Below are positions 2,307 through 61,018 of a stretch of 64,000 nt of DNA, piece after piece. This stretch comes from Phorcus lineatus. Taxonomy: Eukaryota > Mollusca > Gastropoda > Trochida > Trochidae. The DNA lies in assembly GCA_921293015.1 (NCBI GenBank), contig OV121081.1, positions 70,697,022 through 70,761,021 on the forward strand, read 5' to 3'. Numbering within the stretch: position 1 is the stretch's first letter; each line of letters begins with the position of its first letter. The position numbers were made by a program, and so were the translations under genes. The notes under the pieces were generated by a model. It searched no databases. It was given only the letters and a program-made list of their open reading frames with translations, and was not told the DNA's origin.

Positions 2307-2308
2307 TA

Positions 2309-7814: not shown

Positions 7815-7976
7815 ATTAATACCCGAGCGTGGATGTCATATTGTATTTACAACACGAGTGACTGAAAAATGATATTTTTTCCGAGCGAGAGCGAGGGTAA
7901 TATCATTTTTCAGGCACGAGTGTTGTAAATACAATATGACATCCACGCGAGTGTGTTAATTTCTTTATTATCCATC
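7815..7976 (-). repeat. Long hairpin element H1 with adjacent signature
   Basis: Arms 7815-7876 and 7899-7960 are inverted repeats of 62 nt with seven mismatches. Four of the seven fall in two CGAG blocks. Both blocks read CGAG in the plus direction on both arms, 31 nt apart, giving G-A/A-G tandem mismatches when the plus strand folds. The loop region is CGAG-rich. On the minus strand the hairpin is preceded by GATGGATAATAAAGAA (7961-7976), the signature shared with the other copies. No ORF. Confidence 0.8.
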
Positions 7977-8435
7977 TTCTCTAAGAAAATTAATTCCAAA
8001 ATGATCAAGATATTCATATTCAGCCGCGATCTAAATATAGCAGTAGGCGTATGAATACAGTGTCGACAAGGTCAAGGTCGCGGTGCACTGACTTTGTTGT
8101 GATAAGACTAAATTTAGCGCCAATTTGAAATCGTCATAACACGACTCTTTCTCGAAAACGTCACATAGTTTTCATTTCATTTATCATTTTAACTTTCAAA
8201 TTGAGTTTTAGAAAAAAATATAAAACCAGTAACATTCAAAAATCTTAAATATTACCTCACATTTGAGAGAATCACTTCGATCACGTACGGTAACTGTTAC
8301 GGCATTCGAAAGGAACTCACTGTCGGAAACTCTGACACTAACAACATGAAAAGTCAAAAATAAAGGTGACAAGATTAACGACTGAACAACAACTTTAGGT
8401 CAAACGAATGTCAGCACTTGATCGGCATGTGCTAT
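7977..8435. other. Gap between hairpin H1 and the orphan exon
   Basis: AT-rich sequence with no convincing ORF, repeat or RNA gene. If the exon at 8436-8811 is terminal, this would be its 3' UTR and downstream flank. Confidence 0.3.
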
Positions 8436-8811
8436 TTAATCGTCATCCGAAGAATCTGAAAAGACAACAGGACAGATTCGTCGACGCTTCGGGTTGGGTT
8501 CACTCGTACTCGGGTGATCAGCTGATTGAACGGCACTGGCAGTCGCACCCGTTGCATATCCAATGCTGATGTTGGAAACACCTCCGTATATTGGCCCAGC
8601 AAAGATTGTACAGATAATTTCAGAGGGAATTGCTTTGTTGTTGTTCTGGACTGAAAAAACTTGTGAATTTTGTTTCGACGGGAGAATGTTTTGATCAAAA
8701 TTGACTGGTAACGCGTCAACGTCGCGAGAATTCGGGAGTGACAACTGCCTTTTTGCTGGAGTTTTGGCCGACAGAAGCGAACCAATATTTCTGTGTTGGG
8801 CATCCGACAAT
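8436..8811 (-). CDS. Orphan terminal exon, unknown protein with basic and acidic C-terminus
   Basis: I do not recognise this family. On the minus strand an acceptor (TTCCAG at 8812-8817) is followed by an open frame of about 124 codons ending TAA at 8438-8436. The frame begins LSDAQHRNIGSLLSAK and lacks an ATG at its first codon, consistent with an internal or terminal exon. Low-complexity S/N/P-rich sequence leads to NPKRRRICPVV, a likely nuclear-localisation signal, and an acidic end SDSSDDD. A second frame over the same bases is arginine-rich and looks like a shadow. No upstream exon could be joined with confidence, so this may be a relic or an exon of a mobile-element gene. Confidence 0.4.
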
Positions 8812-8967
8812 CTGGAATGATTTATTAGAAACGATCAAAGTTTCGGAGGACACGAGATTAACGCAAGTCATAGTATAAATTTTGTACATAGTAAAAAGTT
8901 ATGAATGAAAAAAGTAGTCCCACATTCCGATGTCACGTGGTCAGCCAACTCGACCAATCAAATTGCC

Positions 8968-9046
8968 GCTAGGGTTTATTATACATGTGCAACATATCGG
9001 AGTTTATGACATGACTTATCTCAACACATATGGATAATAAATAGGG
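8968..9046. repeat. Hairpin remnant with exact GGATAATAAATAG signature
   Basis: TTTATTATACATGTG near 8974 pairs imperfectly with CACATATGGATAATAAA near 9025-9041. GGATAATAAATAGGG at 9032-9046 is an exact copy of the signature next to the long hairpins elsewhere in the window. No long stem follows it, so this is at best a decayed member. Confidence 0.4.
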
Positions 9047-10169
9047 CTATTGTTAATATAAACTAAGGTAAACTAAGTGTAAATTAAGTTGTCAATGATG
9101 AAATCTACAAATAGAATTACCAACTAAATAACCATACGATATCTATCTCTAATAAATCTTACTATTAAGTTACTTAAAGTTAATTCTAAAAACAAAACTT
9201 AAATATTGTAAAATACTATAAGCACAACTCCAACTGCTTTTCAATTAGGAGTTTAACGAAAATGAAATATATACCCAATTTCAACAATGCCAAACACACA
9301 CACGTATGTGCCTTTAAGGGATGAAGAGTATTTTATATGAAATTTAAATGATTGTTTTATAGGATTTTTTTTAAAAACCCACGATATCCATCATCTAAGA
9401 GAATTTCCAGATGGAAACCCTGAAAAAGAAATTATGAATTCGACCTATAAGCACTTTCCAAGGTCAGTACATTGTCCGCGTTTTGATTTTTCTTAGAAAA
9501 TCCTGACTTTTTAGGTTGATGTAGCACTGGAGTCTGGACAGATATAAACAGTTACATTAAAAGGTAATGTCGGCAACAGTATATTAGAGCTCCTCGTTCT
9601 AAATGATTGCGTTTGATATGTGGCTCCTAACAAAATGCTTAATGTCACTTTGACATTACACCACAGGGAATATCTAGTTTAATAAAGTATACTAATTAAC
9701 TTAAATAGTATGAGTAAATAGCTTCCTAAATATATTCGAAGCAAATGCTTTAGATCATCTTAATTAGTTCTCGAAGCATGCTTTCTGGCATATTAGGTCT
9801 ATAAAGAAACATTTTTTAGATCCTACGAGAAACCAAGAAAACACAGCACCATTCTGCACCATATATTTTTCCTTGGTTTATACGTAAGTTTAAGAATAAT
9901 GCGTATTTAGCAGCCTATTAATCATGATACGTAAGAACATGACTTATCTATAAAGTTGAAAAAAGCGCACATAAAAGACCAATTGCAACTGTCGTTATAT
10001 GCATACATTTTTTAATACAAACATTGATGAGAATAATTACCGGGTTAAAAAAGTTGACGACATACATGTACATTTGTATCTCAGTTTTTTATTATAAATG
10101 TTAATATACTCTTCAATTTTCACCGATAAAATACCAATGATAATTATTCGAACATCTCCTTTTATTAAG
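9047..10169. other. Non-coding stretch
   Basis: AT-rich sequence without a supported gene, tandem repeat or inverted repeat. Nothing recognised. Confidence 0.3.
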
Positions 10170-10310
10170 CTGTTTGAGTGGCATTCTAGATGTTGTCGGT
10201 ATAAAGAAAAGGAATTTTATTGCTTGAAAACGGTATAAGAATCTATACCGAAACGTCGCTACCAGTACAATAAAGAAGTTGATTATCCATAAATTCCGTG
10301 TTGTCCTTAT
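10170..10310 (+). mobile_element. Penelope-like 3' ends in inverted arrangement with hammerhead-like motif (copy 1)
   Basis: The segment starts CTGTTTGAGTGGCATTCTAG, which recurs at 62657. It contains TTGAAAACGGTATA, a six-base loop, then TATACCGAAACGTC. This gives a perfect 7-bp stem (10231-10237 with 10244-10250) followed by GAAAC, the layout of the stem II/GAAA half of a hammerhead ribozyme. CAGTACAATAAAGAAGTTGA follows. Copy 2 (62657-62790) has the same block on the opposite strand. Hammerhead motifs are known in Penelope-like elements; assignment to that class is inferred, since no reverse transcriptase is present. Confidence 0.5.
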
Positions 10311-12187
10311 CTCTTATTATTGTTTTCAGTATTGTTATATTTTTTTTATAAATAATATGGATGCTATCTGCTAGCAGTATTATACAATGGCAGCGTATTG
10401 AACATTTCAGTAGACCATTTATTAAAAACTACACAAATGATTATAGCTTAGAACAGTTGAATTTCTAGTTTACCGTTAGTATACACTGCCTGTGCTGTTA
10501 CTCAAATCTGCTAATGCCTTCGACATGTACTAAACTGATGACGTTGTCCCTTTCAGTTGGAACGGTTAGAATGTAGATTCTTTAGGGGGAAAACACCCCA
10601 TCCATTGCACACACATGCGTGAATAATGATTGTACTCTAGTCACGATTTACAATGTTATGATCAATGCAAGGTGAAAAATGTGTTGACTAAACAACAGAA
10701 ACAACCTGTCTAATAGATAGTGCTCGAATACCAGATCTACAATACCAACCTCGCAATCGCAAGTCAGCAATCAACTTGCGGTTGTCTGTAAGCTGTAAAT
10801 ATTGTGTAGAATTCAAACAAGTTGATTTACCACTCTATATAAAAAATTTCTCTTCAAAGTTTGCTGTCAAACAAAATGTTTACTGAATGGTGTTAAAGAT
10901 TTAAAGATCCAAGTTGTTCTGCACTGATATGACAAAGGCGACAGAAGGTTTAACTAAGCCACTAAAACAAGACGTTGTACTCTGATGATGTAGAGCATCG
11001 GACTCGTGAAACATTACAGTTTGATTGCGTCCCGCAGTGACTAATTGTCTGGCATGAAGTTTTAGAAGGTTATCAGCGATGCAAAGACAGCATGAAAGCG
11101 CATGTGGTATTTGTGTCTTATTTTTACGATGAAAAGTTATTTTCACATAACGTTATCAACCGAGCAATCTTTGTTGAGAATTATGTCATAATTAAGATAT
11201 GAGCACGGATGTTCCATTAATACAGCTCTAACCAATGTAACCATAGTATCAAGTTCGTGAATTCCAGGGCCTCCTGCAGAGACATTACAAATTTTGTAAT
11301 ATGATATCGAAAAGGGGATTTTCTCAAGAAAACAACTATCAAAAACATCATACGAATCTGAAAAGCATTTGCGTTTGAATGAATCATTGTTCCTTTTCAT
11401 AAAAAAATGTTTCCTCTTCATTTGATGTGGATTCAAGAATGAAATCAACAGTCTAAAGGATAGCAATCAAACACTAAATAACAAGTCTGCCAAAAGTTGT
11501 CAATCGTTTAATTAGACAAAAGTCATGAATGTTTTTCATACATTAAAATATTGTTTCTTAACAATTTCTAATAAAAAAAGAGTCCTATCTGGGTATTTTT
11601 GTAAACACGAAATTGATACATGACAACAACATCATCTACTTGAATTATGCAATTTGGGTTTTATTTTGGTTGGTAGAGACTTCACATTTTGACAAAAAGA
11701 TGGGTTCACGACAAGGCCTTGCTGGCTAGTTTTCTCGTTATCCTTAAAATCTATGTTGATGTTCTATCATATCAAAATTAAAGAAGCCTCTTTTTAAAAC
11801 TAAAATTACACAATTTCCTGCTTGATATAATATGTTAACCGTCGTGTATTTTTTCAATGTGTTGATATGCTAATGAGGATTCCAAACTAAAACGTTTTGT
11901 TTGTTACTGTAAAGGTAAATCTCACACATCTAATTTAAGATTACGGAAAGTGTAACCGTTCAAAGAGGAATCATAATGATAAATTGAGCTTGTCAACTCT
12001 TGCAAGACGTTTCTTTTTAAAATTCAACATAAAGGTTAGGGACGAACATAGTAACGAAGATCATATTCTACATTCGTCTGTATACACTATGGAAGTCCTC
12101 CGATGTCATTACAACACTGACTGTTAACTTCGTGTTAGTCTTTCCTCAAGGTCCATCATGATCAAGGGTCATGTTGAGAAGCAAGAT
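10311..12187. other. Non-coding stretch
   Basis: Open frames near 10901-11466 (about 81 and 107 codons, minus strand) show no family resemblance and no splice context and look like chance. Nothing else recognised. Confidence 0.3.
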
Positions 12188-23200: not shown

Positions 23201-26200
23201 AAGAAGAATTATACGTTGAAAATTGAATGAGGAATCTACAGAGACATCTGAAATAACACAGCAAGAATTTAATTTTCATGTAGCGTTTACATTTGAAAAA
23301 TGAGAATGGGAGTTTTTCTAGAATAATGTCAAACTTGTAACACTGTTAAATAAATGCTATAATAATTAACAAATAAACATGTGTTCCTTTAACTTTTCAG
23401 GTATCCGGATCACGTACCGAGGTCGCGCCTTCGTGCACTGGACGGAGCAGTTGATGCGGGGCCCGGGGGAGAGTCGGTTCAGGGAGATCCGTCATCACTC
23501 GGCTACAGAGGAATATTTCGATGTCTCACACTCTCTCATACCTAGAGGTACAATAGCTCATACCCAGAGGTACATTCTCATACCAAGAAGTACATTAGCT
23601 CATACCTAGAGGTACAATAGCTCATACCAAGAGGTACATTCTCATACCAAGAGGTACATTAGCTCATACCCAGAGGTACATTAGCTCATACCAAGAGGTA
23701 CATTAGCTCATACCCAGAGATACATTAGCTCATACCAAGAGGTACATTAGCTCATACCAAGAGGTACATTAACTCATACCCAGAGGTACATTATCTCATA
23801 CCCAGAGGTACATTAACTCATACCCAGAGGTACATTATCTCATACCAAGAAGTACATTAGCTCATACCCAGAGGTATATTAGCTCATACCAAGAGGTACC
23901 TTAACTCATACCCAGAGGTACATTAACTCATACCCAGAGGTACATTAACTCATACCCAGAGATACATTAGCTCATACCCAGAGGTACATTATCTCATACC
24001 CAGAGGTACATTAACTCATACCCAGAGGTACATTATCTCATACCAAGAAGTACATTAGCTCATACCCAGAGGTATATTAGCTCATACCCAGAGGTACATT
24101 AGCTCATACCAAGAGGTACATTAGCTCATACCCAGAGATACATTAGCTCATACCAAGAGGTACATTAGCTCATACCAAGAGGTACCTTAACTCATACCCA
24201 GAGATACATTAGCTCATACCCAGAGGTACATTAACTCATACCAAGAGGTACATTAGCTCATACCCAGAGGTACATTATCTCATACCCAGAGGTACATTAA
24301 CTCATACCCAGAGGTACATTATCTCATACCAAGAAGTACATTAGCTCATACCCAGAGGTATATTAGCTCATACCAAGAGGTACCTTAACTCATACCCAGA
24401 GGTACATTAACTCATACCCAGAGATACATTAGCTCATACCCAGAGATACATTAGCTCATACCAAGAGGTACAATAGCTCATACCCAGAGGTACATTATCT
24501 CATACCCAGAGGTACATTAACTCATACCCAGAGGTACATTATCTCATACCAAGAAGTACATTAGCTCATACCCAGAGGTATATTAGCTCATACCAAGAGG
24601 TACATTAGCTCATACCAAGAGGTACATTAGCTCATACCAAGAAGTATATTAGTCCATACCAAGAAGTACATTAGCTCATACCCAGAGGTACATTAGCTCA
24701 TACCCAGAGGTACATTATCTCATACCAAGAGGTATATTAGCTCATACCAAGAGGTACATTAACTCATACCCAGAGGTACATTAGCTCATACCAAGAGGTA
24801 CATTAACTCATACCAAGAGGTATATTAGCTCATACCAAGAGGTACATTAACTCATACCAAGAGGTACATTAGCTCATACCCAGAGGTACATTAACTCATA
24901 CCAAGAGGTATATTAGCTCATACCAAGAGGTACATTATCTCATACCAAGAAGTATATTAGTCCATACCAAGAGGTACATTATCTCATACCCAGAGGTACA
25001 TTAGCTCATACCAAGAGGTACATTAACTCATACCAAGAGGTACATTAGCTCATACCCAGAGGTACATTAACTCATACCAAGAGGTACATTATCTCATACC
25101 AAGAAGTATATTAGTCCATACCAAGAGGTACATTATCTCATACCCAGAGGTACATTAGCTCATACCAAGAGGTACATTAACTCATACCCAGAGGTACATT
25201 AGCTCATACCAAGAAGTACATTAGCTCATACCCAGAGGTACATTAGCTCATACCCAGAGGTACATTAGCTCATACCAAGAGGTACATTATCTCATACCCA
25301 GAGGTACATTAACTCATACCCAGAGGTACATTAGCTCATACCCAGAGGTACATTAGCTCATACCAAGAGGTACATTATCTCATACCCAGAGGTACATTAA
25401 CTCATACCCAGAGGTACATTATCTCATACCCAGAGGTACATTAACTCATACCCAGAGGTACATTATCTCATACCCAGAGGTACCTTAACTCATACCCAGA
25501 GGTACCTTAACTCATACCCAGAGGTACATTAACTCATACCCAGAGGTACATTATCTCATACCCAGAGGTACATTAACTCATACCCAGATGTACATTATTT
25601 CATACCCAGAGGTACCTTAACTCATACCCAGAGATAAATTAACTCATACCCAGAGGTACCTTAACTCATACCCTGAGATACAATAGCTCATATGTAGAGT
25701 TGAATTAGTTAATATGTAGAGATACATAAGCTCATACCTAGAGGCACAATTAGCATATCCCTTATAACACAACAAGAAAATAGCCCGACGCCGACCGACC
25801 GCCTTCCCTTGGACCGAACATTGCAATTTGACAGACTCCTACACTCCTCGCTCCAAAAACATCCCAAGAAATTCTATTAGTCTTATTTCAAAGTCGATCC
25901 TTTCATAGTACAAACAAATATTACTAAAAGAGTACGGTGAACCATATCCCCCGGTCTTTAGCAGCACTGATTTAATATGCTTTTTTGCAAGGGAGCTCTG
26001 TATAATTTTGTAACTATGACACAACTTTTTTTTGGGAGTAGGTCTTCCTAAATGATGTTTGAAAACGTGCCTTTTTTTAAAACTAGGTTGACATTCAAGT
26101 TTATCGTTATGGAGAATAGTCTGCATGTTTTATGAATCCTATAAACTGAAAGTGAATATTGTAAATGATACATTTGATATTTAGTTGAGCTTTTTAAGTC

Positions 26201-35452: not shown

Positions 35453-38400
35453 TTATTCCGGGTAACATTGTAAAAGATGACGTTTTAAGGCGTAAACATA
35501 TAGTGAAAATTGTAAAATAATGGTTTCCCAGGTGCTGTGTTCAATATATTTATTGAAGTCAGTAATTCCTCCAAATAAAAAGGCTAACATGTTAATTTCA
35601 TCTTGTAGTTCAAAGGCCACATAAGCGTCAACTTCAAGAAGATCTATCATAAAAACAAAGAATGCATTTCGGTCAGGATTTAAGTGTTCACAATGTAGTA
35701 GTATATGAAAATCATAGTCGTTAGTATAATTATTACATAGATTGCATTCTTTAGATATTTTTCCACGTGATGAGACTTTAATGCATAATTGTAAAGCAGA
35801 TTTATAATTAGGGTGCAAGTAAGATAATTGCCAAAGAATGTGACATTTTAGTTTATTGTGCACATGTACATAAAGACTCATGTTTGCATTAAAAGATGTT
35901 TGCATTTGCCATAGATGTTCTTCATAGTTATGTACGGATGTATTTACAATTTTACGCCATTTAAGTTTGGAAGGAAATAGACCATCTGATATATATTTTT
36001 CGATATGTACATTCAAATTATATTTAGAGAGTATTGAAAGTAGATCATCGCAGATTGAGGATTTTGAAGAGGTTGCTATTTTTGCACAAAATATGCTTTT
36101 TGCAAAGTTATTACAAGAAAGTTTGCATAGACGTCCAAGAAATATGAGCTTACATTTATCAATGTAGCCAACAAGTGACCATAGTCCTAAATTTGCAATA
36201 GTGGAATCTGTTGATGATCTTTTATCAAGCCCCTGTACAATACGAGCAAAATATCTTTGCGTAATTTCAAGTGCATCAGCTTGCTGACCCCCAATGTTCG
36301 GTAAAATTTCACAGCCATAGAGACTTGTTGGTAACACCATTCTCAGCCAGATTTTAACACATGTAAGCGGATGGAGTTGAGAAACATTTAATCCTACAGA
36401 TCTAAGGGAATTGACATTTTGTCTTGCTTTCTGACAGTACCTTTCGATTCGCGCTTTTGTTGATAAGTCGGAAGTTAGGAGGACACCACCATATGTTGTT
36501 GATTCAGACTGAGGGATTACTGTATCTCCAAGGCAGTATTGAAATTTGGAATTACTGGATTTTCTTTTACTAAAGATAACTATTGCACTTTTAGAGGGAT
36601 TATAGGTTAGGCGCCATTTACAGGCATATGAGGACACGATGTCAAGTGATGATTGTAAACCTTTAGGTGATGCGCTAACAAGAGTGGTATCGTCAGCAAG
36701 CAAGACTGCAGGAACATGCATGCCATATACACATATACCACAGTTGGCTTCTCTGAGGGAAGTTATTAGGTCATTGATAAATACGAGAAAGAACCAAGAT
36801 GAGATAACTCTTCCTTGACCTACACCTTGCTTGACACAATACTTGTCTGATCTTTCACCCTGGTACAGGACAAAACATTCACTATTAGTGTAGCAATGGT
36901 ATAGCAGGTCCCACGTATTTCCTCTTATACCAAGTTTATATAATTTATAAAATAACCCATCATGCCAAATTCTGTCAAAAGCTTTTTCATTGTCAAGAAA
37001 AGAGGCAAAGACGGTTGAATCTCTATGCATGTAATATTGAATACTTTCCATTAATGTAAAAACGGACATGATTGCTCCATGTTCACGCCGAAATCCGAAT
37101 TGTAACTTATCAGGAAAATCTGGTTGAGTTTTAGATAACTTGTTTTCAATTCTTTTAAGTAGAAGCTTTTCAAAGAGCTTACCAAGACAAGATGTTAAAG
37201 TGATACCTCGGTAGTTTCTTGGGTCGGTTTTATCTTTTTTGCCTTTATATATAGGTATAACCATACCTAATCTATATTCTTTGGGGACATATTTAGAGGT
37301 AATGATAAGATTGAATAATCTACATAGATAAGTAATGATAAATTCGCCAGCAAATATGATATGTTCATTGGATATTCTATCAGGTCCTGGAGATTTATTC
37401 CTACTAAGAATTTTGATAGAATCTTTAATTTCAGTGGATGAAAATTCTTTTTCTAGCTCTTCATCATAGATGTGATTTGAGTTTTTTATATCTTTTACTC
37501 GTTTGGATATGTGATCTTTAAAGTTAGAGTCAAATTTATCTGAGTTATGAGGTAGAGCTAGATTTGAGTAGTATTTACCCCATATTTTGCATATTTCCGG
37601 AGGGGTCGTTGCACTCTCTCCGCCGAAACTAAGAACGTTAGCGTTAGTTACCTTTACTCGTTGTTTACGAACATTTTTGTAAAATGAGTTAACATCCAAT
37701 TCAGCTGAAAGTTCAATTTGCTTAAGCATTTCATTTTTACTTTGCCTTTTTGATTTTCGTAAGAGGCGCCGAAAGGTGCGTTTTTCAGTTTTATAGCTTT
37801 GATATAAAGGGGATCTTTTGTCTCGAGGTTTGTCATTGCCAACCCATTCACGTCGTGCAACGCGCATACGATAGTGAGCATTATCTAAACCGTCCGATTT
37901 CCAGAATGGTTTCAAGTAGGGCTTATACTTACTATGAGGTATGGAGTTCACACCCGAATGTAATAAAGCAGTGGTTATAATATCATTATATGTGTCAACA
38001 AGGTCTCCCTGATGTTCGTTACCATGGTAACAACTATGATATTTTATGTATTGTTCAATTGAATATTGATAGCAGCAAATGTTGGTTTCATCGGCTCTGT
38101 CCCATTTAGGTACACCAAAGCAGTCTCCACTACTATAATGTGTAATAGGGGGTAAGTCTAACGAAATCAAACATGGTAAATGGTCTGAAACATTGTAAGG
38201 ACAGGTATCAATTATTTGGACATCGCTTATATGACAGCTTATGCATGAAGAAACTAGTATATAGTCAATCATGCTTTGAAAACAGTTGTCCTTTGATCTA
38301 TATGAATAATCTGGTAAGTTAAAATATGAGTTGCTTAGAGCATTTATGAGATTTCTTTCTGATAATACACTTTTGAGGGCCTTATCTCTTTGTGATAATA

Positions 38401-38965
38401 GCGATTTACATATATCCGAGTTGAGATCACCAAGAGTAATTGTTGTGCTTATTTCAGACAAGTAATCATACAAGTCAAGAAATTCATTTAAAGCATTGTG
38501 GAAGGTTGCATATAATACATTGGTTGAAGGTAATCGGCAATTAATTACATAAACATCACAATATCCGTCTCTGGTAAGTTTAACTGCTACTGTATATTCA
38601 GAGTTAACTGTGAGGGGCTCTGCTCGCCAAGGGGAGTGGGTGTTTACTAGAATAGCAAGTCCATGCGAGCCACGAGAGCACGTGGAACTAGCACTCATAC
38701 AGTTATAAGTTACAAGATTGAGCTCAGGAAGAGAGTTGAGGTGATAAAGCTTGTCTGGAGAAAGCCAGTGTTCTTGTAAAGCCACTATATCCATATTCTG
38801 GGATACAGTCTGCTTAATGTATTCAGTACCATGCTGAAGACCACGCACATTCCATGTTAACAACGAGAGAGTCATAGTAACAAATATTATATACATGAAG
38901 TGTCCATTTCTACTTTGGGGGAGCATACGATATTTAATAGATATGGTGGTTGTCAACATTGTCAC
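35453..38965 (-). CDS. LINE ORF2: endonuclease and reverse transcriptase
   Basis: A 1170-codon ORF. AP-type endonuclease at about residues 31-270: TWNVRG (37-42), QEHW (64-67), GDLNSD (179-184), SMIDYILVS (231-239), SDHLP (260-264). Reverse transcriptase at about 510-830: NKSPGPDRIS, NYRGITL, FLDNEKAFDRIWHDG (656-670), GVGQGRVIS, and the catalytic LADDTTL (LADD 756-759). A C-terminal zinc knuckle has C1074-x2-C1077-x9-H1087-x4-C1092. The protein nicks the target and primes cDNA synthesis there. The true start is probably the Met at residue 31 (MTLSLLTWNVRG, base 38875), which would remove the overlap with ORF1. No frameshift or stop is present. Confidence 0.95.
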   Translation of the reverse strand: MTMLTTTISIKYRMLPQSRNGHFMYIIFVTMTLSLLTWNVRGLQHGTEYIKQTVSQNMDIVALQEHWLSPDKLYHLNSLPELNLVTYNCMSASSTCSRGSHGLAILVNTHSPWRAEPLTVNSEYTVAVKLTRDGYCDVYVINCRLPSTNVLYATFHNALNEFLDLYDYLSEISTTITLGDLNSDICKSLLSQRDKALKSVLSERNLINALSNSYFNLPDYSYRSKDNCFQSMIDYILVSSCISCHISDVQIIDTCPYNVSDHLPCLISLDLPPITHYSSGDCFGVPKWDRADETNICCYQYSIEQYIKYHSCYHGNEHQGDLVDTYNDIITTALLHSGVNSIPHSKYKPYLKPFWKSDGLDNAHYRMRVARREWVGNDKPRDKRSPLYQSYKTEKRTFRRLLRKSKRQSKNEMLKQIELSAELDVNSFYKNVRKQRVKVTNANVLSFGGESATTPPEICKIWGKYYSNLALPHNSDKFDSNFKDHISKRVKDIKNSNHIYDEELEKEFSSTEIKDSIKILSRNKSPGPDRISNEHIIFAGEFIITYLCRLFNLIITSKYVPKEYRLGMVIPIYKGKKDKTDPRNYRGITLTSCLGKLFEKLLLKRIENKLSKTQPDFPDKLQFGFRREHGAIMSVFTLMESIQYYMHRDSTVFASFLDNEKAFDRIWHDGLFYKLYKLGIRGNTWDLLYHCYTNSECFVLYQGERSDKYCVKQGVGQGRVISSWFFLVFINDLITSLREANCGICVYGMHVPAVLLADDTTLVSASPKGLQSSLDIVSSYACKWRLTYNPSKSAIVIFSKRKSSNSKFQYCLGDTVIPQSESTTYGGVLLTSDLSTKARIERYCQKARQNVNSLRSVGLNVSQLHPLTCVKIWLRMVLPTSLYGCEILPNIGGQQADALEITQRYFARIVQGLDKRSSTDSTIANLGLWSLVGYIDKCKLIFLGRLCKLSCNNFAKSIFCAKIATSSKSSICDDLLSILSKYNLNVHIEKYISDGLFPSKLKWRKIVNTSVHNYEEHLWQMQTSFNANMSLYVHVHNKLKCHILWQLSYLHPNYKSALQLCIKVSSRGKISKECNLCNNYTNDYDFHILLHCEHLNPDRNAFFVFMIDLLEVDAYVAFELQDEINMLAFLFGGITDFNKYIEHSTWETIILQFSLYVYALKRHLLQCYPE

Positions 38966-40619
38966 TGTAAGTCTTATTCCTGGGTATATAGTCTCTCATA
39001 CGTATTCCTGGGGGCCAGAAGTCTCTGACACCGGACACATAATCCTCATAGTCGTCGAAATCGAGATTAACTTGAACTGTATAGGTATCAGGATAGTTAT
39101 TACGAACGTTTTTCTTCATCAGTCTCACAAATGTTACTCGAACACTCTGGTCATGAGCATATTCATAAATTAAGTCTTTAACTGAGTCGAAGGAATCTTC
39201 TGCACTGACGTTGTACAATACAATTCGTTTAGTCTTTACCTTCGGTACGCCTTGTAGTGCGTGATACTGTTTCGATAGGGATCTTATAGGATGAGTTGTA
39301 TCTTTCTTTACCTTTTTCTCTGTGATGCTGTTTGGATGGGGATGGCTTACTTTCTGCTTCACGTTGATGCCTGTTTGTTGAGGTCGGAGGGAAGGGAAGT
39401 CGGTGTCGTAGTCGTTGTAATTGATGTCGATGCTAGTGTAGTTAGCTGCTAGATCTTCTCTGCTGGTTGATGTGATGGCGTTCTCTTGATGGCGTCCTGT
39501 CAGCACCGGAATAGGGTGTGATTCGCTGTTGTCCGTTGCTGACTTCGTTGTCGCTGTCTCAGTCTCAGTATTCGTAGTTTCTGCTGCAGTTGACGTTGGC
39601 GTTGACGTGGAAGCATCATGGGTATCCTTTGGTGGCTGTAAGTTGGCTTTAGGGTTTTCATTAGAATTGTGCATATGTTTGGAAACAGCTGTGAGTTTTG
39701 ATTCAATTGTCTTCAGTTTAGAATCAACAGAATAGTTAGTATTAAGAAGTTCATTTTCTAAGTGTAGTATATGATCCCGAAAAGATTTATTCTCTTGATT
39801 GGATAACTTTAGCTCTGCTCTTAACTCTGAGCGCCTTTCTTCTGAGTGATTTAGTTTCTTATCTTTTTCTTTGATAGTCTCTTGCAAACATCTGATGTCA
39901 TCTTTAAGTTTCTTTTCAAGTTTCTCAAATTTGTTCTCTAACACTTCATAACCATCATTCACAACTTGCTTTAGTTGAACAATATGACTGAGCAATAATG
40001 CAAATGTGTCGCTTTGCTCACCTTGTGTACTTGAAGTAGTGGATCTTGATAGGGTGGATGGTGTCGTTGCAGGCGGTGTTGGAGTGCCGAGCGTTTGTGA
40101 TGTTGATCCATTCTTCTTGTTATTGACAGATGATAATGTCAAAGGTGAAGCCGGCAATTGTAGTGTTGATGTTGAGAGATGACGAACGCTAGCTCTGCTA
40201 AGAACCTTGTTCTGGAGTACAAAGTCAGTAATAGACCCTTCTATAAAGTGGAAGAGATAATAAACATCTTGTGCGTACTTGTAAACCACTGATGGTGTTG
40301 CTGCCTGTGTATTCTTACGCTTGATTAGTAAACCTTTAGGAAAGTTGGTACATGTGTGCTTGCCATAATCATAGAGGCTTTCTCTTACGTCATTTATCTC
40401 TTTGATGTTATAATTGTAGATATCTTGAACACTGTCAATGAAGCTGGTTTTGTCTTTAGATCCAACCTTTCTTTTGATTTCTAAATAGATTGACTCATCT
40501 ATGTAACCACACGGCTGTGTGTTATACACCTCGTCATTGTCCACATCGGTAACTTCAGTACTTGCATAATCACTTATTGTTGTGCTCTCATTGTCTTCAC
40601 TGTCCAGGGCGTCGGCCAT
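38934..40619 (-). CDS. LINE ORF1: coiled-coil nucleic-acid-binding protein
   Basis: A 561-aa ORF1 protein, expected to bind element RNA and form the particle with ORF2. Residues 1-30 are acidic, and about 205-315 form a strong coiled coil (EVLENKFEKLEKKLKDDIRC and following heptads). Residues 320-390 are rich in Thr, Ser and Glu. A compact C-terminal domain spans about 464-546 (TKRIVLYNVSAEDSFDSVKD to DFWPPGIRMRDYIP). No CCHC knuckles are present. The C-terminal domain resembles the RRM-like or C-terminal fold of other invertebrate LINE ORF1 proteins; this is family impression, not a search. The start follows GTTCGAACA and gives MADALDSED. Confidence 0.88.
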   Translation of the reverse strand: MADALDSEDNESTTISDYASTEVTDVDNDEVYNTQPCGYIDESIYLEIKRKVGSKDKTSFIDSVQDIYNYNIKEINDVRESLYDYGKHTCTNFPKGLLIKRKNTQAATPSVVYKYAQDVYYLFHFIEGSITDFVLQNKVLSRASVRHLSTSTLQLPASPLTLSSVNNKKNGSTSQTLGTPTPPATTPSTLSRSTTSSTQGEQSDTFALLLSHIVQLKQVVNDGYEVLENKFEKLEKKLKDDIRCLQETIKEKDKKLNHSEERRSELRAELKLSNQENKSFRDHILHLENELLNTNYSVDSKLKTIESKLTAVSKHMHNSNENPKANLQPPKDTHDASTSTPTSTAAETTNTETETATTKSATDNSESHPIPVLTGRHQENAITSTSREDLAANYTSIDINYNDYDTDFPSLRPQQTGINVKQKVSHPHPNSITEKKVKKDTTHPIRSLSKQYHALQGVPKVKTKRIVLYNVSAEDSFDSVKDLIYEYAHDQSVRVTFVRLMKKNVRNNYPDTYTVQVNLDFDDYEDYVSGVRDFWPPGIRMRDYIPRNKTYSDNVDNHHIY

Positions 40620-40875
40620 TGTTCGACCTTAGTAGACAGCTTGCATTGGTGTTTACAATTTCGTGTTAGTGAATAAATTTTCAATATGAAAATATATACA
40701 AAGTATAGTTTATGGATAGTTCCAACGATTAAAGTTCACATTTGGTCATATGCAAAAATTCAATTCATGATGAAGTCATATCACCTGGGTTCGTAGAATA
40801 GCGTTGTGTGATGAAAGCATTTAAGATCACCGCAGAGCGCAGAAAAAACACGTCCTCACACCTCGACTGCTGTAC
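40620..40875 (-). promoter_or_regulatory. LINE 5' UTR, presumed internal promoter
   Basis: The 256 bp between the target duplication and the ORF1 start. LINEs of this type carry an internal promoter here; no specific motif was identified. Confidence 0.45.
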
Positions 40876-41133: not shown

Positions 41134-42660
41134 TATTGAATGATGACTGCTTTTATCCTCGGCGAACAAGAGATCGATGTTCCTGTACTGTAAAGAGATG
41201 GGCAGGTAGTTCCAGAGTTGCAATATGTCGACTGTCGGACTACAGAGGATTCGCAACTAAGGTTTGGCCATGCCTAGTCCGTTCAAAAAGTAAGAAATGT
41301 CTTCATCCGTCTTCTTCGTCATATGGAAGTGATTTCAATCGAATTGCCCTGAGATCTTGGAAAGAAGAACTTCATTGTAGTATCTTATTAATCGTCAGTC
41401 ATGAAGGTTAATTCCTAACTTGTGTGTTGTGAGAGAGTGAGTTATTGTTTAGCGCCTCTTGCGCCATTAAAGGCGTTCATCCCACTACAAACATATTATA
41501 ATAATGTCATCATGAAGTAGATTTTTTCTGTTTATTTCTGTCCCACCTTATCCTTTGGTAAAATCTGAAGATCCTTGTTAGCTGATTACGATGTACGAAG
41601 AACATTTACATTAGTTTCTTTGATATACACATTGCTTGAACAGTCTGTAAATAAAATCAGAATCAACATCTCGACAATGAGAAGATTGGTTAATGATGAA
41701 GTGTAGTGATTGCAATGGCTCTCATCTTCCAGATAAGTCTCAGACACTCAATATACCTTGTTCTTTAGAGACAGTGAATATTTGATTAACTTTTGAGTCA
41801 AAGCTTGCTATCCACTCCAGTGATTTCCGGGGTCTTTCATGTTAAATGTCATATTCTTTCTAGTTCTTTGATCTTGGAATCTTTGTTCTTCCACAATCAT
41901 TACATTAACCATGACACGTGATAAAGACAGCTATCCTATGGGAATCTTAATCTTAGACTAGTCATAACATTACCGATTTACCATTACTCATTGATCGTCA
42001 TAGTTTCTAGAATAGCCATCACATTTCTTATCTAAATTAATTATTAATGGTTCTTTTAAAGTTAAGAATTACACATCTTTCTTGACAAAGCTGAGCCTTT
42101 TCAATTAAGTCATAACAGGAGAAGCTTTCCAAGATATAAAAATATCACACACGTCTCGTTAAACATTCTTCGAGTCTATCTTTGGCCTCTCGTAGCTCCT
42201 GTGCAGTCTCATCTTGAAATCACTCAGAGACATAAGTTATTGAAGATTCCCTGAGGAAAACGTTCTTTTTATACGTAAATTACTTTCATCAACTATATAC
42301 CGTCTCACAGTTATATATATTATTTCGTGATGATTTTTGGATATTTATATACAATGTTATTCAAAATGGACTCAAAATTGGTATCTTTACATACTATTGC
42401 TACGACATTACAAACTATGATATTAGATAATTATTATATTTGGAATGGTGAAATATGCCATTTATCGGTGAAAATAAAACCCGTATTGTCACTGAGTGAA
42501 ATAAAAATGGCAGTCTACTCTGTAAAATGATGCAACAATCATATGACGTCGTCTGTGACGTCATGAAACAATTGAATGACGTCATGCAACAGCCACGCTA
42601 GCGAAGCGTTTTAGCTTCTCAATTCATTTATTCAGGGTCATTTACGGGGTTTGGGGAAAC
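41134..42660. other. Non-coding stretch
   Basis: No supported gene. A 91-codon ORF at 41136-41411 has no family signal. A small GCGCCTC/GGCG foldback sits near 41451-41475. Confidence 0.3.
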
Positions 42661-42826
42661 ATAATAAATAGAACATTTGACATTTCTCGTCGAATACCAT
42701 GAATATCTCATCTCGTGAAGTAGAAAATCATATATTTACACTCTTGGCTACGCCACTCGTGAAAATATAAATTTCTACTTCACTCGATGAGTTATCCATG
42801 GTATTCGACGAGAAATGTCAAATGTT
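42661..42826 (+). repeat. Long hairpin element H3 with signature
   Basis: Signature ATAATAAATAGAA at 42661-42673, then inverted arms starting AACATTTGACATTTCTCGTC at 42672 and ending at 42826. The outer 28 bp pair perfectly. Further in, the left arm reads CATCTCGTGAAGTAG where its partner reads CATCGAGTGAAGTAG, so CTCG runs in the same direction on both arms. A third block (CTCT against CGAG) lies near the tip. Confidence 0.85.
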
Positions 42827-45270: not shown

Positions 45271-45281
45271 GGGGATCCTTT

Positions 45282-49174: not shown

Positions 49175-52100
49175 TCACCTTTTTCTTTTGGGAAGAGGTG
49201 TGTTGTCTACAGTCAGTGGTTGTTTTCTTTTATTGGTGATGTTACCACGAATGGGGGAAAGAGCACTTGATCCTATCACCCTCAGCTGAGAAAGAGTATT
49301 CTTGACATCATATACTGTTGGGTTGTCATTCGCACCACCCTTGTGGCGGTAGTGAGAGAAATGTTGTTCAAGGGGATCCTGATTAAAGCGATGTGTGAGA
49401 ATAAATTCTGCTCCCTCCGAAAGTAATAACCTTACACATTCTACAATTGAATTAACAGTCAGACGAAGCCCATCTAAGGTCTGCTTACTAAGAGTCATAC
49501 GTTGACGATCACTTTTCTTGTAATGCCCTTGACGATTTTGAACAGATTGTTGCCAATCCTCAAAATATGCTAGGAATTCATCTGTTAAATATAAGAGGCG
49601 GGGATCATTGACACAGGTAAAAGCCGCCAAATTAGGGTTTCTTTTTTGGTGCGATTCCTTGATACTCCTGCTGTTTAGACAGTCAAAAAATTTATTCATG
49701 TGACGTATAAACTTTACAGTCTCAGAAACATGATCCCCATACAGTTCTTCCAAAGCATCTGCTACAGTTGAGCTAAGCACCTGTGCAGCTAAATTTACTT
49801 TCATCTTTGCAAAAGACGTCAAGTGAATATGGTTGTTGTCTAGTTTTGGACATCTATTAAATAGAGACTTTTCCACATGATCTTCATACAAACGCATGAT
49901 GTGAGTCCATGAAATATTTCTGTTGTCTTTCCATAAATGACGAGCCATGTTATGTGCTCCGGAGTTTGAGAAACAATTTCTGGTTGTTTTCAATAAATGT
50001 GGGACATCAGATATGAAGTAAATTTTTCTTCTATTGTCAGTACCTGAGAATGGATTCCAGGTCCAATGGGCATTGTTCATATCGTCATGGGAATGAAGAC
50101 GGAAAAATTTGCGATTTGGAGAGGCACCATCACAAGTAATGAATAAGGTTTTCAGTCCACAATCTAGTTCCAAAATTCTCACTGTTTCCCATATAGGTGA
50201 AAACAGTTGGGCTGCTGTGATTCCACTTGTTGCTAAACATATGAAGGGATAGCAGAGAGAAGATGTGATTCCTCGCACCATAATCACTAGCATGGACGTT
50301 GCCAACTTCCTTTCATCCTCTTTGAGGGCATTCTCAATATTGGCGATGTCATTACCTATCTTGTCGAGTTCTATAAACCCAACCAGCTCGCCGCTAGTTT
50401 TGTCATAAACAAGTCCCTGGGAGACCTTGACTTCATCTTGAAGTATCCCTACATAAGATTTCCAATCCTCATCAAACATACCACACTTTGTAGCCTCTTG
50501 CAATAAGTGCTCAGTATATTTCTCATGAAAACCAGTACAAGTTGGCAGAACATGAGAATAGTCAAATAGTGTCCGTGAACTTGGGAGTGATATAAAACCA
50601 CAGTTTCTTGCTGCATCATAAGCCTTTTGGCTTTTACTTCGAAGGTAGAGACACCACTTAATGACCATAGGATGCCATTTCATTTTGCTTTTGTGTTCAA
50701 GCTTGGCGTATTTCATTTGTTGCTCCCAAAAAAGTCGCTGGATTGAGTTGGTATCCGGAAAACTTTTTTCTACATCACCAGTGTGTTGTTCCAATAGCTC
50801 CATCAGTTCTTCATTTTCACTCTCACTGAGAAGTTGGCCTTTAGATTTGATGATATTTGAAATTTTTTTTTTCAACCTTTCCAATTCTCCTATGACTGAC
50901 TTCTTCTCCTCTTTGATTATATTCATTTTCTTCACAAGGTTATCCTTTGACATATACTTGTGTGGTGTAGTTTTCAAAGTTAAGCTGTCAGTCTTTTTGT
51001 TCTTTTGGCGATGTTCTTTCTTTCTTAGGGTGTTCCTATACAGCTGACACGGCTTACATCTTGTTATGGATGATGTAAGCATGGAACATCTTGTTGACCT
51101 GATCGTTGATGTGTAATGAAGGTCATCACGATGTGCAGAAATATCTTCCCTATAGGCCACCGGTTTAGGAACTGTTTTTTCAAAAAATGAAATTCCAACT
51201 GGCAACATTGACACATAGTCTGCTTCATGATTTCCAATGCAAATATCCCAAGAAGTGAGCTTTGTGATAATTCTCTCTATGTCCTTTACTGTGAAAATTG
51301 ACTTTGGTAAACCCATCCAGAAATCATGATCTTCTCTTAGCTTCTGCCCATGCACAAATAAAACTGTCTTTAAAGAGGGTTTTATGATGAGTTCCAACTT
51401 GATTGACATGGGCGTTTTGTGCCTATAAAAATCAACAAAATGCAAGCCATGATTATCAGCATTCACGTACTGTAAAATTCCCCAGCCTGAGCGGTTGTCA
51501 TTCACAGAATTCTGTAAAAGGATATACTTGGTGAATATATAGTCACTTTTCAATTTCTTCACAAAAATGTCTAAATCATCCAAGTGAGAATATTCGAAAA
51601 CTTTATGTAAAATTACATAAAATTTATCAGCTGCACAATTGTCTGAATCAACTTGTTCCTCAGATGAAAGATTGGATGTATCCTCATCTGGCTGGTCGTT
51701 CTCTATGAAGAAGCAGCTCCAGGCACTTTTCCATCCAATATCATCACTGGGAGAAGTGCTGCAAAATAAAAGACAACTGTAATTTCCACAAGTTCAACAT
51801 CCCAATCATGTTTAATAAACTCATTAAGTTAGTATAATCCTAAATAGTTTTACAATAAAAACAAATTAATAGGAAATTAAAGTCCTGTCACCTCAAGTGT
51901 AACATGAATTTGACAAATGGAAGTTACAATTTGAAAAGTAAAAATAAAAATTAAGCTTCATTTGTAAAACTGTAATTTTGCCAATAAGTCATATAAAGAC
52001 GATTAATTAAATGCATTTTGCTGAAAAGAATTTAATACATTTTTAGTAGACTGTTAAAAATTTGTCTTACCTCTCAGTCTGGTTAGAAGGTGAATGTTCT

Positions 52101-55425: not shown

Positions 55426-55459
55426 AAAACATTTACCAGACATTTCTGGTAAATGTTTT
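55426..55459. repeat. Perfect 15-bp inverted repeat
   Basis: AAAACATTTACCAGA, then CATT, then TCTGGTAAATGTTTT. A compact perfect hairpin without mismatches. It could be a microRNA-like or cruciform-forming site, but the stem is shorter than a typical pre-miRNA, and no function is claimed. Confidence 0.7.
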
Positions 55460-56155: not shown

Positions 56156-56240
56156 GTAATAATAATAATAATGAATAGCATTTATATAGCGCTTAAAATC
56201 TCCACTAAATGGACTCAAAGCGCTCAATGTGAACAAACTT
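56156..56240 (+). repeat. Dispersed (TAA)n / ATTTATATAGCGCTT repeat
   Basis: (TAA)n followed by TAGCATTTATATAGCGCTTA and, about 30 bp later, CTCAAAGCGCTCA. I recognise this layout as common in many invertebrate and fish genomes; its element class is not certain. Confidence 0.5.
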
Positions 56241-56293
56241 TCGGTATGCAGCTGTAACTAAAAAAAACTAATATTATAAACTTATCTTAAATA

Positions 56294-56409
56294 GGAGATA
56301 AATGTATGTCGTGCATTTTTCACCCCTAGCTCGGTTTGAAATGTTTATTTAGGGGTGAAAAATGCACGACATACAACCCCAAAATAAAAAACAGAATGGA
56401 TTTATCTCC
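56294..56409. repeat. Hairpin element H6, perfect 24-bp inner stem
   Basis: GTATGTCGTGCATTTTTCAC and four more bases (56304-56327) pair perfectly with 56351-56374 around a 23-nt loop that contains CTCG. An outer stem GGAGATAAAT/ATTTATCTCC (56294-56303, 56400-56409) encloses it. TAAATAGGA directly precedes it, like the signature of the other hairpins, but the stem lacks the mismatched CTCG blocks. Confidence 0.75.
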
Positions 56410-57544: not shown

Positions 57545-58090
57545 GATCGTGATTGGCTGATTTTTCTATATTGAATGGCAAGGAAAACCCGCAAATTATC
57601 TCGGACGATTCACCGCAAAATGATACATGTCGACTACAATCGGACCGACTCAAGATTTAAATGTTCTGATTATCTTAATATCTAAGCCTTACTAAAGTTT
57701 GACAGTTATCATAGTTATTTTCTTAAAGGCGTTTTTCTGTAGACATACAAATTATTTTCAATATGATTTATTTTTTATTTTTTATTTTTCCAATTTAACG
57801 CCTTGTTTCAAGCGACCGCTTTCTTTCGAATGACGTTTCCATGGCTTGACGTCACAAAGGCCAACCGTTTTGACATCGCGTCATTTTCTCAATGGACGTT
57901 TTTTAATGATTTTTTTATCTTAGGGTCAACGGTGTTTGCTAAGGAGTATGTTTACACATACATTTTTATATCCGTCTAAAATGAAATAGTGAAGATTCCA
58001 GGTGAACAACGCCGTCGGGTTTTAACTAAATTGGCGGGTGTTGAATAACAATGAATCCCGGGAATTTTACAAACGCAACTATTTACCTTC
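57545..58090. repeat. Dispersed repeat related to the interior of the pogo element
   Basis: Collinear with 3130-3410, including GATTCACCGCAAAATGATAC, GGCGTTTTTCTGTAGA and GGGTGTTGAATAACAATGAA followed by CCCGGGAATTTTACAAACGC. This copy carries about 260 bp more in its middle. No pogo TIR was found around it. Confidence 0.6.
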
Positions 58091-59330
58091 CGAATGAATG
58101 CTTTTTTTGTAAATTTTCAATTTCTTATCTTTGGAAGTGTCCAAATATATTTCAACATGGAACATATTCATAAAACGGATTCTTTTCCCTCACTTCAAGT
58201 TTGCCCCATTCTATGCTTACCATAGGCATTCCATGACAACAAGGAGATCACAAATGATATCAAAATGCTTTTATTACCCACATGGGACTTCGTAAAGGGG
58301 TTTCATGACATATGTGTCATAACACCTTCGAGTGATTTGATTGGCTGATACATGAGTTTTAACGTTACCGGTACTACTTTCATCAGCTATTTCATTCATG
58401 ATTTCCATTCATAAGTTTTCGTTCCTAAGCACAAGAAAAACGAGAATTTTCATATAATCGAATAAAATGTATTTTTAATTGTGGTTACATGCAAGGCTTT
58501 TCTTTCCTTTTATTACTGAAATGTCCGTAAATAAATAGAATAACTATACAATCTAAATAAGTAACAAAATTCGTCTAGGTCTATCGGGACTCATGTAAAC
58601 AAAGATGGCGTCACCCGTAAAAAAACAATGATTTGCTCAAAATCTATGGAAAAGTTATTGGACGAGTTGTGAATGTTATTCGGCCTTTAAACACTTTCAG
58701 CATATATGTTGTCAAGACTTCTCAGGGGGGAAAGCAAGTACCTAGATATAGACTTACTGTTTTTCCTGTTTCGCAAAGCGTCGCCGTATTGTTTACAGTG
58801 ACTTGTCCTTTTATCTGATGAAGAATAGTTGCAATTGAATGAAAAGTTTCTTTACCAGTTGACAGTTTTTGAGACATAAATTTTAAGGTTATTCCCTTAA
58901 GAGGCCAAATGTTACGTGTGCCATTCAAAACGTGTCTTGTTAATCCGTTGTTTCCGAACAGTAAGTTCTCCACGTCACGACACGTCTAGAGTGACGGCCG
59001 ACTGACGTTGAGCCGAGATTTAGGTCACGTTTATCAGTTCAAAATGTTGACAGTTTTCGCGTGTTTATGCTGAATTACATATTTGTAGCTGAAACCTAGT
59101 CTTCAAATGAAATGAATTAAATGATTTTTGTTTTCAGTTGTAGTTTATTTTCATTTGTTTCTTTATCAAATGTAATGAACTACATTACACCAAAGCAGCG
59201 TACGTTTTCCGAAATGAAGGGGCCGACATTCCAAGCACAAGTGTAATGTATTAATCCGCGTTTTGCGTTTCTCTATAGGGAAGCTAGATTTTACTTTAAT
59301 TTGACGATGTTTTCATTGTAATAAACGTGG
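58091..59330. other. Non-coding stretch
   Basis: Contains a near-palindrome ATGACATATGTGTCAT around 58306-58321, and AAAGATGGCGTCACCC near 58600 that opens only an eight-codon frame. No gene could be built from it. Confidence 0.25.
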
Positions 59331-59489
59331 GTAATAAATAGGATACAAAACTCGTTCCCCATTCATATCAAGTTTTTGTCCCTCGTGAAATAATTTTGTT
59401 TTGTCACTCGCCAAGGCTCGTGAAAAAAGCAAAATTATTTCACTTGGGACATAAACTTGATATGAAAGGGGAAGCTCGTTTGATATCCT
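59331..59489 (+). repeat. Long hairpin element H4 with signature
   Basis: GTAATAAATAGGATA (59331-59345) leads into inverted arms spanning 59340-59489. Within the left arm CTCG lies at arm positions 12, 43 and 68. At the first and third the partner arm, read in pairing orientation, has CGAG; at the second it has CAAG. The tetranucleotide therefore runs in the same direction on both arms (CTCG three times on the left, CTCG twice and CTTG once on the right). The rest of the stem pairs well (for example TTCATATCAAGTTT). Confidence 0.85.
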
Positions 59490-60901
59490 ATAAATATTAG
59501 AGGTGTTATATGACTTTTGATACAATACGTCGGATGTTAAACCTGTAAGCTTTTGGAACGATGTGCGATGTTTTATATTCGCTTGTGTTCAATTATTTTC
59601 CTGATTTTTCTGAATTTCTAAAATTTTGCTATCATTGTAATATGAAGGAACAATTGTGTATTAAGAAGCACATGAGGTTAGTCAGAATGGGGCTATTGCA
59701 AATATTGCAGAAAATACGAGACACACCACTGAGCCCATTTCCTCCTAGTGTGTACATCGCCTGCTGTTAGTCTTGGTATACTTGTGAACATAATAACAGT
59801 GAATGCAAGCATCTCGTTTCTAAAAACACAGTATTTCACATCTACTTGCAACTTCCAGTCCTTACCTTGTACAGACATACGAGGATTGTTATTTAAACGA
59901 CAGTCAGGACATTTGGTATATTTCCTTGTAAAAGGACATGTGGAAACTACCAACTGAAAAAAATAGGATTGATTTTATACATCACACTCACTCCTTACTG
60001 GCAAAGACAATTCTGAAAGCAAGCTGAGTGACGGAGCATTATCAGGCAGGAGTAACACATGGCCTCCCGGGACCTGACGTGAGACTGTAAACAGAACATG
60101 TCTATATAAACACATGCAGTGTACACATGGCCCTGTTTGCGTCCTTTCAGACTTCCAAGAATTCCTTTAATAGTTTTGAGACAGTGTCTTTACATGCAAT
60201 TCATACTTGACTCTTTCCCACAAATGTTTAAAACATTTAGTTTAAACTGAACGGGATACCCATTAAACTTGTTTCACCGCGGTGGTCCTTCACGTGAGAA
60301 GAACCTGACCTGCCATGCAATGTTGGTTGGTTGAGTCAGTTCAGTTTAACGTTAAAGTTGTAACCACGCTACATTGAGCAATCGCTGGTCCCTTTTATAC
60401 ATCATGTAAATGAACGACGAAGGGAATCTTACGACAGGGCATCCACATGCCAAACTGACAAACTCAGACAATGACCTGTCGTTGAAAGGACAATTAACAT
60501 CTACCTAATGCATCAGAACGGATCATACCATTTTCCGTCCTGCAAGTAGTAGATCCCGGTCCAACTGCCAAATCATTTTGAAAATACTTTATCCACTCGC
60601 ACTTACCCTTAAAGAAGCAACTATTCTGGGTGAACAACATACAATGAGAGGCATTAACATTTTATTCTCTAAAATAGGTTCCATTGTTTTCAAGTTTTAA
60701 ACAGATATTGAATTGTACAGAATACGAGATCAGTGCAGAGGAAGTTTAAGGGTTAAGGTTTAACATTGTATATACTAGATTTTAATCATTGTTGTATATG
60801 CTTTTCTGATATGACATATTTATATGACATGACAATTTATCATCCAAAACTGTTTTAATTTTTTCAAATGCACATTTCTCTTGGATATGTAATGAAAATG
60901 A
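59490..60901. other. Non-coding stretch
   Basis: No supported gene or repeat. Confidence 0.25.
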
Positions 60902-60907
60902 CTTTGA

Positions 60908-61018
60908 ATGATAAATAGAATCTAACCCTCGTGTCTTTTGATATCAAATATATCAACACTTGTATCAAAGAGTGTTGATATAATTGATATCAGAAGACGC
61001 GAGGGTGAGATTTTCTAT
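60908..61018 (+). repeat. Long hairpin element H5 with signature
   Basis: TGATAAATAGAATC precedes and enters inverted arms spanning 60915-61018. Left CCCTCGTGTCTTTTGATATC pairs with right GATATCAGAAGACGCGAGGG. The first CTCG block is fully paired. The second, 31 nt further, is CTTG against CTCT, apparently decayed. The loop is about 10 nt. Confidence 0.8.

Follow-up and report, generated by a model that had tools for sequence, protein, structure and literature searches.

What kind of element carries long hairpins whose stems change from copy to copy while a short block within them keeps its letters, spacing and direction? The question is raised by a 64,000-nt stretch of the gastropod Phorcus lineatus (assembly GCA_921293015.1, contig OV121081.1, positions 70,697,022 to 70,761,021 of the forward strand), hereafter the window, in which four such hairpins were found: c1 (7815-7960), c3 (42672-42826), c4 (59340-59489), and c5 (60915-61018). 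The window has a GC content of 36% and mild CpG depletion, and searches of the organism's own genome covered the 957.8-Mb assembly of 74 contigs. We conclude that the hairpins very probably form the 3' ends of non-autonomous rolling-circle transposons of HINE type, in the Helentron/Helitron2 group. The full reading, in which CTCG blocks along these hairpins are also selected internal loops read by a transposase or host factor, has in our estimate a probability of about 0.5. As probable non-autonomous rolling-circle transposons, the elements are ordinary in kind; the terminal hairpin is their unusual part.

Hairpins of the window

The original prediction located the four hairpins correctly, and they are the best inverted repeats of the window (scores of 44, 43, 33, and 30, with a runner-up at 26; the maximum in four Markov-1 sequences of the same length was 14). 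The blocks and their positions are as follows.

7807-7968, minus strand: 3' hairpin of c1; CTCG blocks (CGAG on the plus strand) at 7948, 7917, 7892, 7886, 7882, 7855, and 7824
42672-42826, plus strand: 3' hairpin of c3; CTCG at 42686 and 42712, CTCT at 42741, CTCG at 42756 and 42783, CGAG at 42809
59336-59492, plus strand: 3' hairpin of c4; CTCG at 59351, 59382, 59407, and 59417, CTTG at 59443, CTCG at 59475
60915-61018, plus strand: 3' hairpin of c5; CTCG at 60928, CTTG at 60959, AGAG at 60969, CGAG at 61000; inner modules lost, right blocks of complement type

No tetranucleotide is more enriched in the hairpins than CTCG/CGAG: they hold 19 of the window's 212 sites within 571 nt (1.9 expected). 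When the arms of the four copies are aligned, 38 of 267 pairs are mismatched, and the 20 block-centre columns account for 16 of these (P ~4e-12), which contradicts the alternative that mismatch positions are random. Most block pairs run in the same direction on both arms, as had been predicted: 8 of 11, comprising six exact CTCG.CTCG pairs (the maximum in 200,000 simulations was 2), one CTCG/CTTG pair in c4, and one CTCT/CTCG pair in c3. The remaining three are of complement type, namely, the outer pairs of c3 and c5 and the altered inner pair of c5 (CTTG/AGAG).

Read on the CTCG strand, the steps between blocks are 31-25-10-27-31 in c1 (with an extra block in the loop), 31-25-10-26-32 in c4, 31-10-31 in c5, and 26-29-15-27-26 in c3. 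The predicted first steps of 31 nt in c1, c4, and c5 and 26 nt in c3 are therefore right, but the second block of c5 is CTTG rather than CTCG. A wider CACTCGTG-like context recurs around the blocks. The signature ATAATAAATAG, also part of the prediction, is present beside all four hairpins (exact at one, one mismatch at two, two mismatches at one) but unspecific when taken alone, with 80 window matches at up to two mismatches against 63 expected.

The window's fifth-best hairpin (56303-56375) is a perfect 26-nt inverted repeat with CTCG in its loop, lying within a second inverted pair (ATAGGAGATAAAT / ATTTATCTCCATT).

Families and element architecture

A pattern joining the signature to two blocks, which requires blocks 1 and 2 in one direction and over-represents module-deleted copies of the c3-like family, matched the genome 51 times, compared with 0 for the reversed-pattern control. 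Thirty loci were fetched and grouped by stem into 16 c3-like, 11 c5-like, and 3 other copies. We label the family of c1 FF, the c3-like family F3, that of c4 FD, and the c5-like family FB; others include FG and FH. The c4 hairpin has 40 scored genome places (of 393 candidates, window copy included), mostly at 97 to 98% identity; the c1 hairpin likewise has 40 (of 720 candidates, window copy included) at 95 to 100%; and the FH stem gave 50 pattern matches against 0 in the control.

Family likeness extends upstream of the hairpin and ends directly past it. Rather than standing alone, the hairpins form the 3' ends of longer, non-coding elements of 0.2 to 1.25 kb (c3-like, ~0.4 kb; c5-like, ~0.45 kb; c4 family and c1, ~1.2 kb). 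The c4 family starts with TTATTACCCACGT, whose exact 13-bp inverse, ACGTGGGTAATAA, stands directly ahead of the hairpin. The c3-like family pairs the 5' start TTATTATATTTC with the inverted counterpart GAAACATAATAAATAG, and the c5-like family pairs TTTATCATCCAAAAC with ATTTTGGATAATAAATAG; a 5' repeat is present in all 4 window copies. Because 5' termini recur inverted ahead of the hairpins, the signature is part of a 3' subterminal inverted repeat: it is the inverted copy of the element's 5' terminus. The window copies are laid out as follows.

7809-9043, minus strand: whole HINE-type element of c1, family FF; 5' end near 9041-9043, 3' end CTCTAT near 7809, placed by the inverted 5' copy of the signature at 9029-9041 and by flank reading
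7964-7976, minus strand: 3' subterminal inverted repeat of c1, GATGGATAATAAA
42431-42832, plus strand: whole element of c3, family F3; 3' end diverged and set by alignment to relatives, 16 genome loci aligning over ~240 nt upstream of the signature
42656-42671, plus strand: 3' subterminal inverted repeat of c3, GAAACATAATAAATAG, the inverse of the 5' end TTATTATATTTGG
58271-59497, plus strand: whole element of c4, family FD; 5' end TTATTACCCACAT at 58271, 3' end uncertain within 59493-59497, placed by family boundaries
58271-58283, plus strand: 5' terminal repeat of c4, one mismatch to the family's TTATTACCCACGT
59325-59337, plus strand: 3' subterminal inverted repeat of c4, ACGTGGGTAATAA
60836-61018, plus strand: short, internally deleted element of c5, family FB (TTTATCATCCAAAAC ... 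TTCTAT); 5' repeat at 60836-60848, inverted pair I10, FB likeness from ~42 nt upstream of the signature

After the hairpin, elements end in ...CTAT (CCTATAA in the c4 family), and the insertion site is AT-rich, its 3' side reading NTAT or NTNT and its 5' junction being ambiguous. No target-site duplication was found in the two families scored: 22 c4-family copies scored 40 (shuffled pairs, 42.7) and 8 F3 copies scored 20 (24.0). These samples remained after anchor mismatch had removed 8 of 30 c4 and 7 of 15 F3 copies (and 3 of 11 FB copies), with one F3 locus (L178) left out. Around single window copies, direct repeats showed nothing clear; TGAA stands at both ends of c5, possibly by chance. 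In the copies examined, the palindrome is at the 3' end only and is far longer than described for HINEs.

Features matching these are described for HINEs (non-autonomous Helentrons) in the available parts of PMC4067079 and PMC7492417. HINE/DINE-1 elements, including Cg_HINE of the Pacific oyster, likewise have a 5' terminal repeat that recurs inverted close to the 3' end, a 3' palindrome, and no target-site duplication; their insertion into TT or T-rich targets may correspond to the AT-rich site seen here. They also share an inverted repeat in or beside the 5' one, which here is CCCACGTGGG in c4 and ATATTTC...GAAATAT in the c3-like family. What differs is the palindrome, which here measures ~100 to 160 nt, with stems of ~45 to 75 bp and a same-direction CTCG ladder.

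One candidate, a foldback element or miniature inverted-repeat transposable element (MITE) whose two arms both carry transposase sites, was dropped, the palindrome being one-ended and no target-site duplication having been found.

The ladder across families

The four-block pattern CTCG-26..28-CTCG-20..24-CTCG-6-CTCG, which requires blocks 1 to 4 in one direction, matched the genome 786 times, compared with 6 times for its reversed control; at least one of the 786 is a match to a simple repeat (C1:27939560). Among the 100 matches listed, from which the stem families were read, there were eight stem families and one simple repeat. A typical ladder consists of six CTCG blocks that almost always point the same way, with steps of ~31-25-10-25-31 nt. 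The count of 786 against 6 contradicts the alternative that copies show no spacing preference. It equally contradicts the idea that they are diverged copies of a single palindromic cut-and-paste MITE in which CTCG was kept by chance. We regard that idea as scarcely credible: the ladder is kept in each family of similar copies, no target-site duplication was found in the c4 and F3 families, and the palindrome is at one end only. What speaks for it is a weak residual likeness of the spacers between families (left outer arms 0.52 alike, shuffled 0.47; seg1, p = 0.04; seg2, p = 0.0015), which makes distant common descent of the families likely.

We obtained right arms from 17 small regions and compared arms across nine families, using a single chosen copy of each. 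Outer spacers matched their own partner at 0.92, compared with 0.52 for the partners of other families, and inner spacers at 0.82, compared with 0.53. Where the outer spacers are 27 nt long (six families), Watson-Crick pairing holds for 150 of 162 pairs, and every one of the 27 columns contains at least two Watson-Crick types; therefore, both arms have changed together. The blocks behave differently from the stem: 26 of 27 block pairs run in the same direction (21 exact CTCG.CTCG and 5 differing in one letter), the last being complementary. Nine of the 27 are forced by the search pattern, since it fixes blocks 1 to 4 and pair 3.4 thus offers no free test of direction in families found with it. 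Among the free pairs (1.6 and 2.5), 17 of 18 are same-direction (12 exact and 5 with one letter changed) and 1 is complementary. The prediction that dispersed families keep signature, spacing, and same-direction blocks while both stem arms change was thus borne out by the signature search, the ladder count, and the block pairs together. From this natural covariation one can tell the parts that are free to vary (the letters of the stem) from those that are conserved (the letters, direction, and steps of the blocks).

Although the majority stem of the c4 family comes close to a perfect palindrome, its blocks are mismatched in every copy (30 of 30); the mismatch therefore belongs to the form that spread. 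It might be argued that the pattern has a mutational origin, with hairpin-templated correction equalizing the arms and the tandem mismatch of CTCG.CTCG (sheared G.A on one strand) escaping repair without selection. The joint change of the arms would suit this, and conversion or inversion does occur, as the blocks turned in c5, L226, and L238 attest. We nevertheless find such an origin improbable, as it leaves unexplained both the shared steps and why CTCG, and not other tandem mismatches, is found in every family.

How the blocks might be read

To our knowledge, recognition of the 3' end by Helitron-type elements is poorly defined. Under the preferred reading of HINE-type hairpins with selected loops, the displaced 5'-to-3' strand (the CTCG strand) would fold into the long hairpin during rolling-circle transposition. 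A transposase or host factor would then read the periodic two-base loops (TC facing TC between closing C-G pairs) and not the stem sequence, and the cut would be made behind the recognized hairpin. The stem would be free to drift provided that both arms change together, and either correction templated by the hairpin or selection for folding would keep the arms matched. Blocks would have to stay in the same direction because no other arrangement forms the loops. Recognition of loops by the transposase, as opposed to duplex sites, is what we infer from these patterns. More generally, and only tentatively, at somewhat less than even odds, we suggest that this rolling-circle group has its 3' end read as a folded single strand through a periodic internal-loop code independent of stem sequence, that is, a structural terminator. 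If this is true, stems could be rewritten while mobility persists, comparable in principle to integron attC sites. The covariation data yield testable predictions for a termination signal as well as a search pattern for such elements elsewhere.

Because the steps of ~31, 25, and 10 nt come close to 3, 2.5, and 1 turns of the helix, binding to duplex DNA is still a live reading. On that account, the transposase would bind six iteron-like CTCG(TG) sites, all in one direction and near whole or half helical turns, and form a polar assembly next to the 3' cut. Hairpin formation would be the separate task of the palindromic spacers, and the mismatch would be a by-product. Block letters, direction, and steps are indeed kept across families, and the CACTCGTG-like context recurs. 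Iteron-like sites alone, however, leave same-direction sites on the right arm of a palindromic stem unexplained (the 17 of 18 free pairs), and we judge this account rather unlikely.

Which strand carries the loops matters for another part of the original prediction, the stable tandem G.A pairs of the CGAG strand. Such pairs do arise there, but if the rolling circle moves with the 5' repeat leading, the transferred strand is expected to be the CTCG strand, with T.C and C.T mismatches. In DNA folding predictions, the CGAG strand has only a slight advantage in c1, c3, and c4 and a disadvantage in c5, so the stability of sheared G.A pairs is a weak argument. The folds are long and stable, and selection could conceivably act on a transcript, with the hairpins serving as small-RNA precursors or double-stranded RNA. 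This seems highly improbable: the window has no Rfam match at the gathering score, microRNA matches at c3, c4, and c5 (the copies for which that threshold was run) are sub-threshold, and the fixed position at the element's 3' end beside an inverted repeat suits a role in DNA.

The sub-threshold Rfam microRNA matches were rejected.

Autonomous partner and exceptions

The genome contains 53 matches to PF14214 (Rep), 18 of them in open frames of 2,450 to 2,661 aa, while 14 control genomes contain none. The one Rep protein tested (C1) combines Rep, PIF1 helicase, and Exo_endo_phos domains, the make-up of a Helentron; that the genome encodes such a protein counts in favour of the HINE-type reading.

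Separately, we observed that Helitron Rep matches are clustered on a single contig (G000:C25, ~0.77-3.45 Mb and 7.5-8.1 Mb). At locus L382, a Tc1-like transposase frame (1871-2893, plus strand) splits a Helitron PIF1 helicase region; the insert is absent from L379, which is 99.7% identical.

Several results count against reading the hairpins as HINE-type 3' ends with selected loops. A ladder hairpin was found at 0 of the 8 Rep loci examined (of 53; 5- to 10-kb flanks, mostly downstream, with the hairpin search strand-free and the block search single-strand at some loci). No FH copy lies <50 kb from any Rep match, the nearest being 59 kb away as compared by eye. In the partial accounts available, the 3' palindromes of mite HINEs measure 5 to 10 bp. 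Within the ladder itself, agreement between inner arms is poor in FG and FH (0.50 and 0.64), c5 has lost its inner modules and carries complement-type blocks on its right arm, and the outer block pair of F3 is complementary. The hairpin of L226 is turned, the outer right block of L238 (from the family of L239) is CGAG, the fifth block of L240 is CACG, and the outer right blocks of L241 and L242 are unrecognizable. Steps also differ in F3 and others (e.g., 26-29-15). The original claim that blocks resist inversion accordingly does not hold absolutely: they are turned in c5, in the outer pair of c3 and F3, in L226, and in L238.

Other copies are rearranged. Several F3 copies miss whole modules, from block to block, and L176 is a chimera combining F3 modules with others; on these grounds, the CTCG blocks also seem to act as recombination points. 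L172 joins the end of one element head-to-tail to the start of the next, a point in favour of the HINE-type reading; L185/L186 and L229 have inverted joints, and L253 is cut short. Some breakpoints of the rearranged copies (L176, L226, L185/L186, L229, and L172: chimeric, inverted, palindromic, and head-to-tail) fall at CTCG blocks.

Comparison with known systems and collections

Canonical Helitrons (Helraiser) resemble these elements in the terminator role. They differ in their 5' TC and 3' CTRR ends, which are absent here (the ends are TTATTA/TTTATCA and CTCTAT or CCTATAA), and the hairpin here is much larger. In integron attC sites, the stem sequence varies, and kept structure and unpaired bases decide which strand is used; these are bacterial tyrosine-recombinase sites, and the likeness is an analogy of working only. 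Fusarium FoHeli elements (Helitron2) share asymmetric terminal inverted repeats and terminal hairpins, but they end in ATTTT or CTCCTGT, and the accessible part of PMC5148889 does not mention a ladder. Bacterial repetitive extragenic palindromic (REP) elements have a fixed tetranucleotide and family-variable stems, with unpaired GA in the stem of one family, but they are prokaryotic, with stems of 6 to 13 bp and an IS200/IS605-type mover, according to the portion of PMC3733652 available. The foldback elements Tetris and Galileo have repeated sites inside inverted arms but, as far as the available text of PMC4079207 goes, they carry long inverted repeats at both ends and, in Tetris, 8- to 10-bp target-site duplications, unlike the one-ended palindrome seen here, for which no duplication was found.

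Public collections returned no relative. The ladder gave 121 matches among the 120 IMG/VR stretches listed, with a best inner-arm complementarity of 0.62, and pairs of CACTCGTG gave no long hairpin among the 120 IMG/VR stretches listed. The signature with blocks hit 3 IMG/VR stretches, none a relative by eye, and 39 stretches of GTDB genomes, with no ladder hairpin. These IMG/VR and GTDB matches look like chance. We found no ladder of this kind in the open-access literature, in searches not aimed at the ladder itself and with Repbase and subscription papers outside their scope; the families may be catalogued in those sources.

Other features of the window

The window also holds an arrestin-domain exon, a long interspersed nuclear element (LINE), DDE_1, and a P-like transposase open reading frame. 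Taken alone, these features indicate an animal, and the relatives of the P-like protein probably a mollusc, perhaps a gastropod. A homologue search with the arrestin exon returned none, and two window proteins had no relative in IMG/VR. The remaining features are as follows.

49178-51793, minus strand: P-element-like (TNP-like, THAP9-type) transposase in a long open frame; mollusc proteins rank first, the nearest from Haliotis (56% identity over 99%)
35456-40628, minus strand: LINE whose long open frame encodes endonuclease and reverse transcriptase; a further open frame lies upstream
23535-25754: tandem array of ~101 copies of a 22-nt unit
~6722-7546: miniature element with ends TAGGGCTGAAACGGGT ... 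ACCGTTTCAGCCCTA and an 8-bp flanking direct repeat, CATGACAG

The miniature element is hAT-like; its ends are rich in CTCG/CGAG and unrelated to the ladder.

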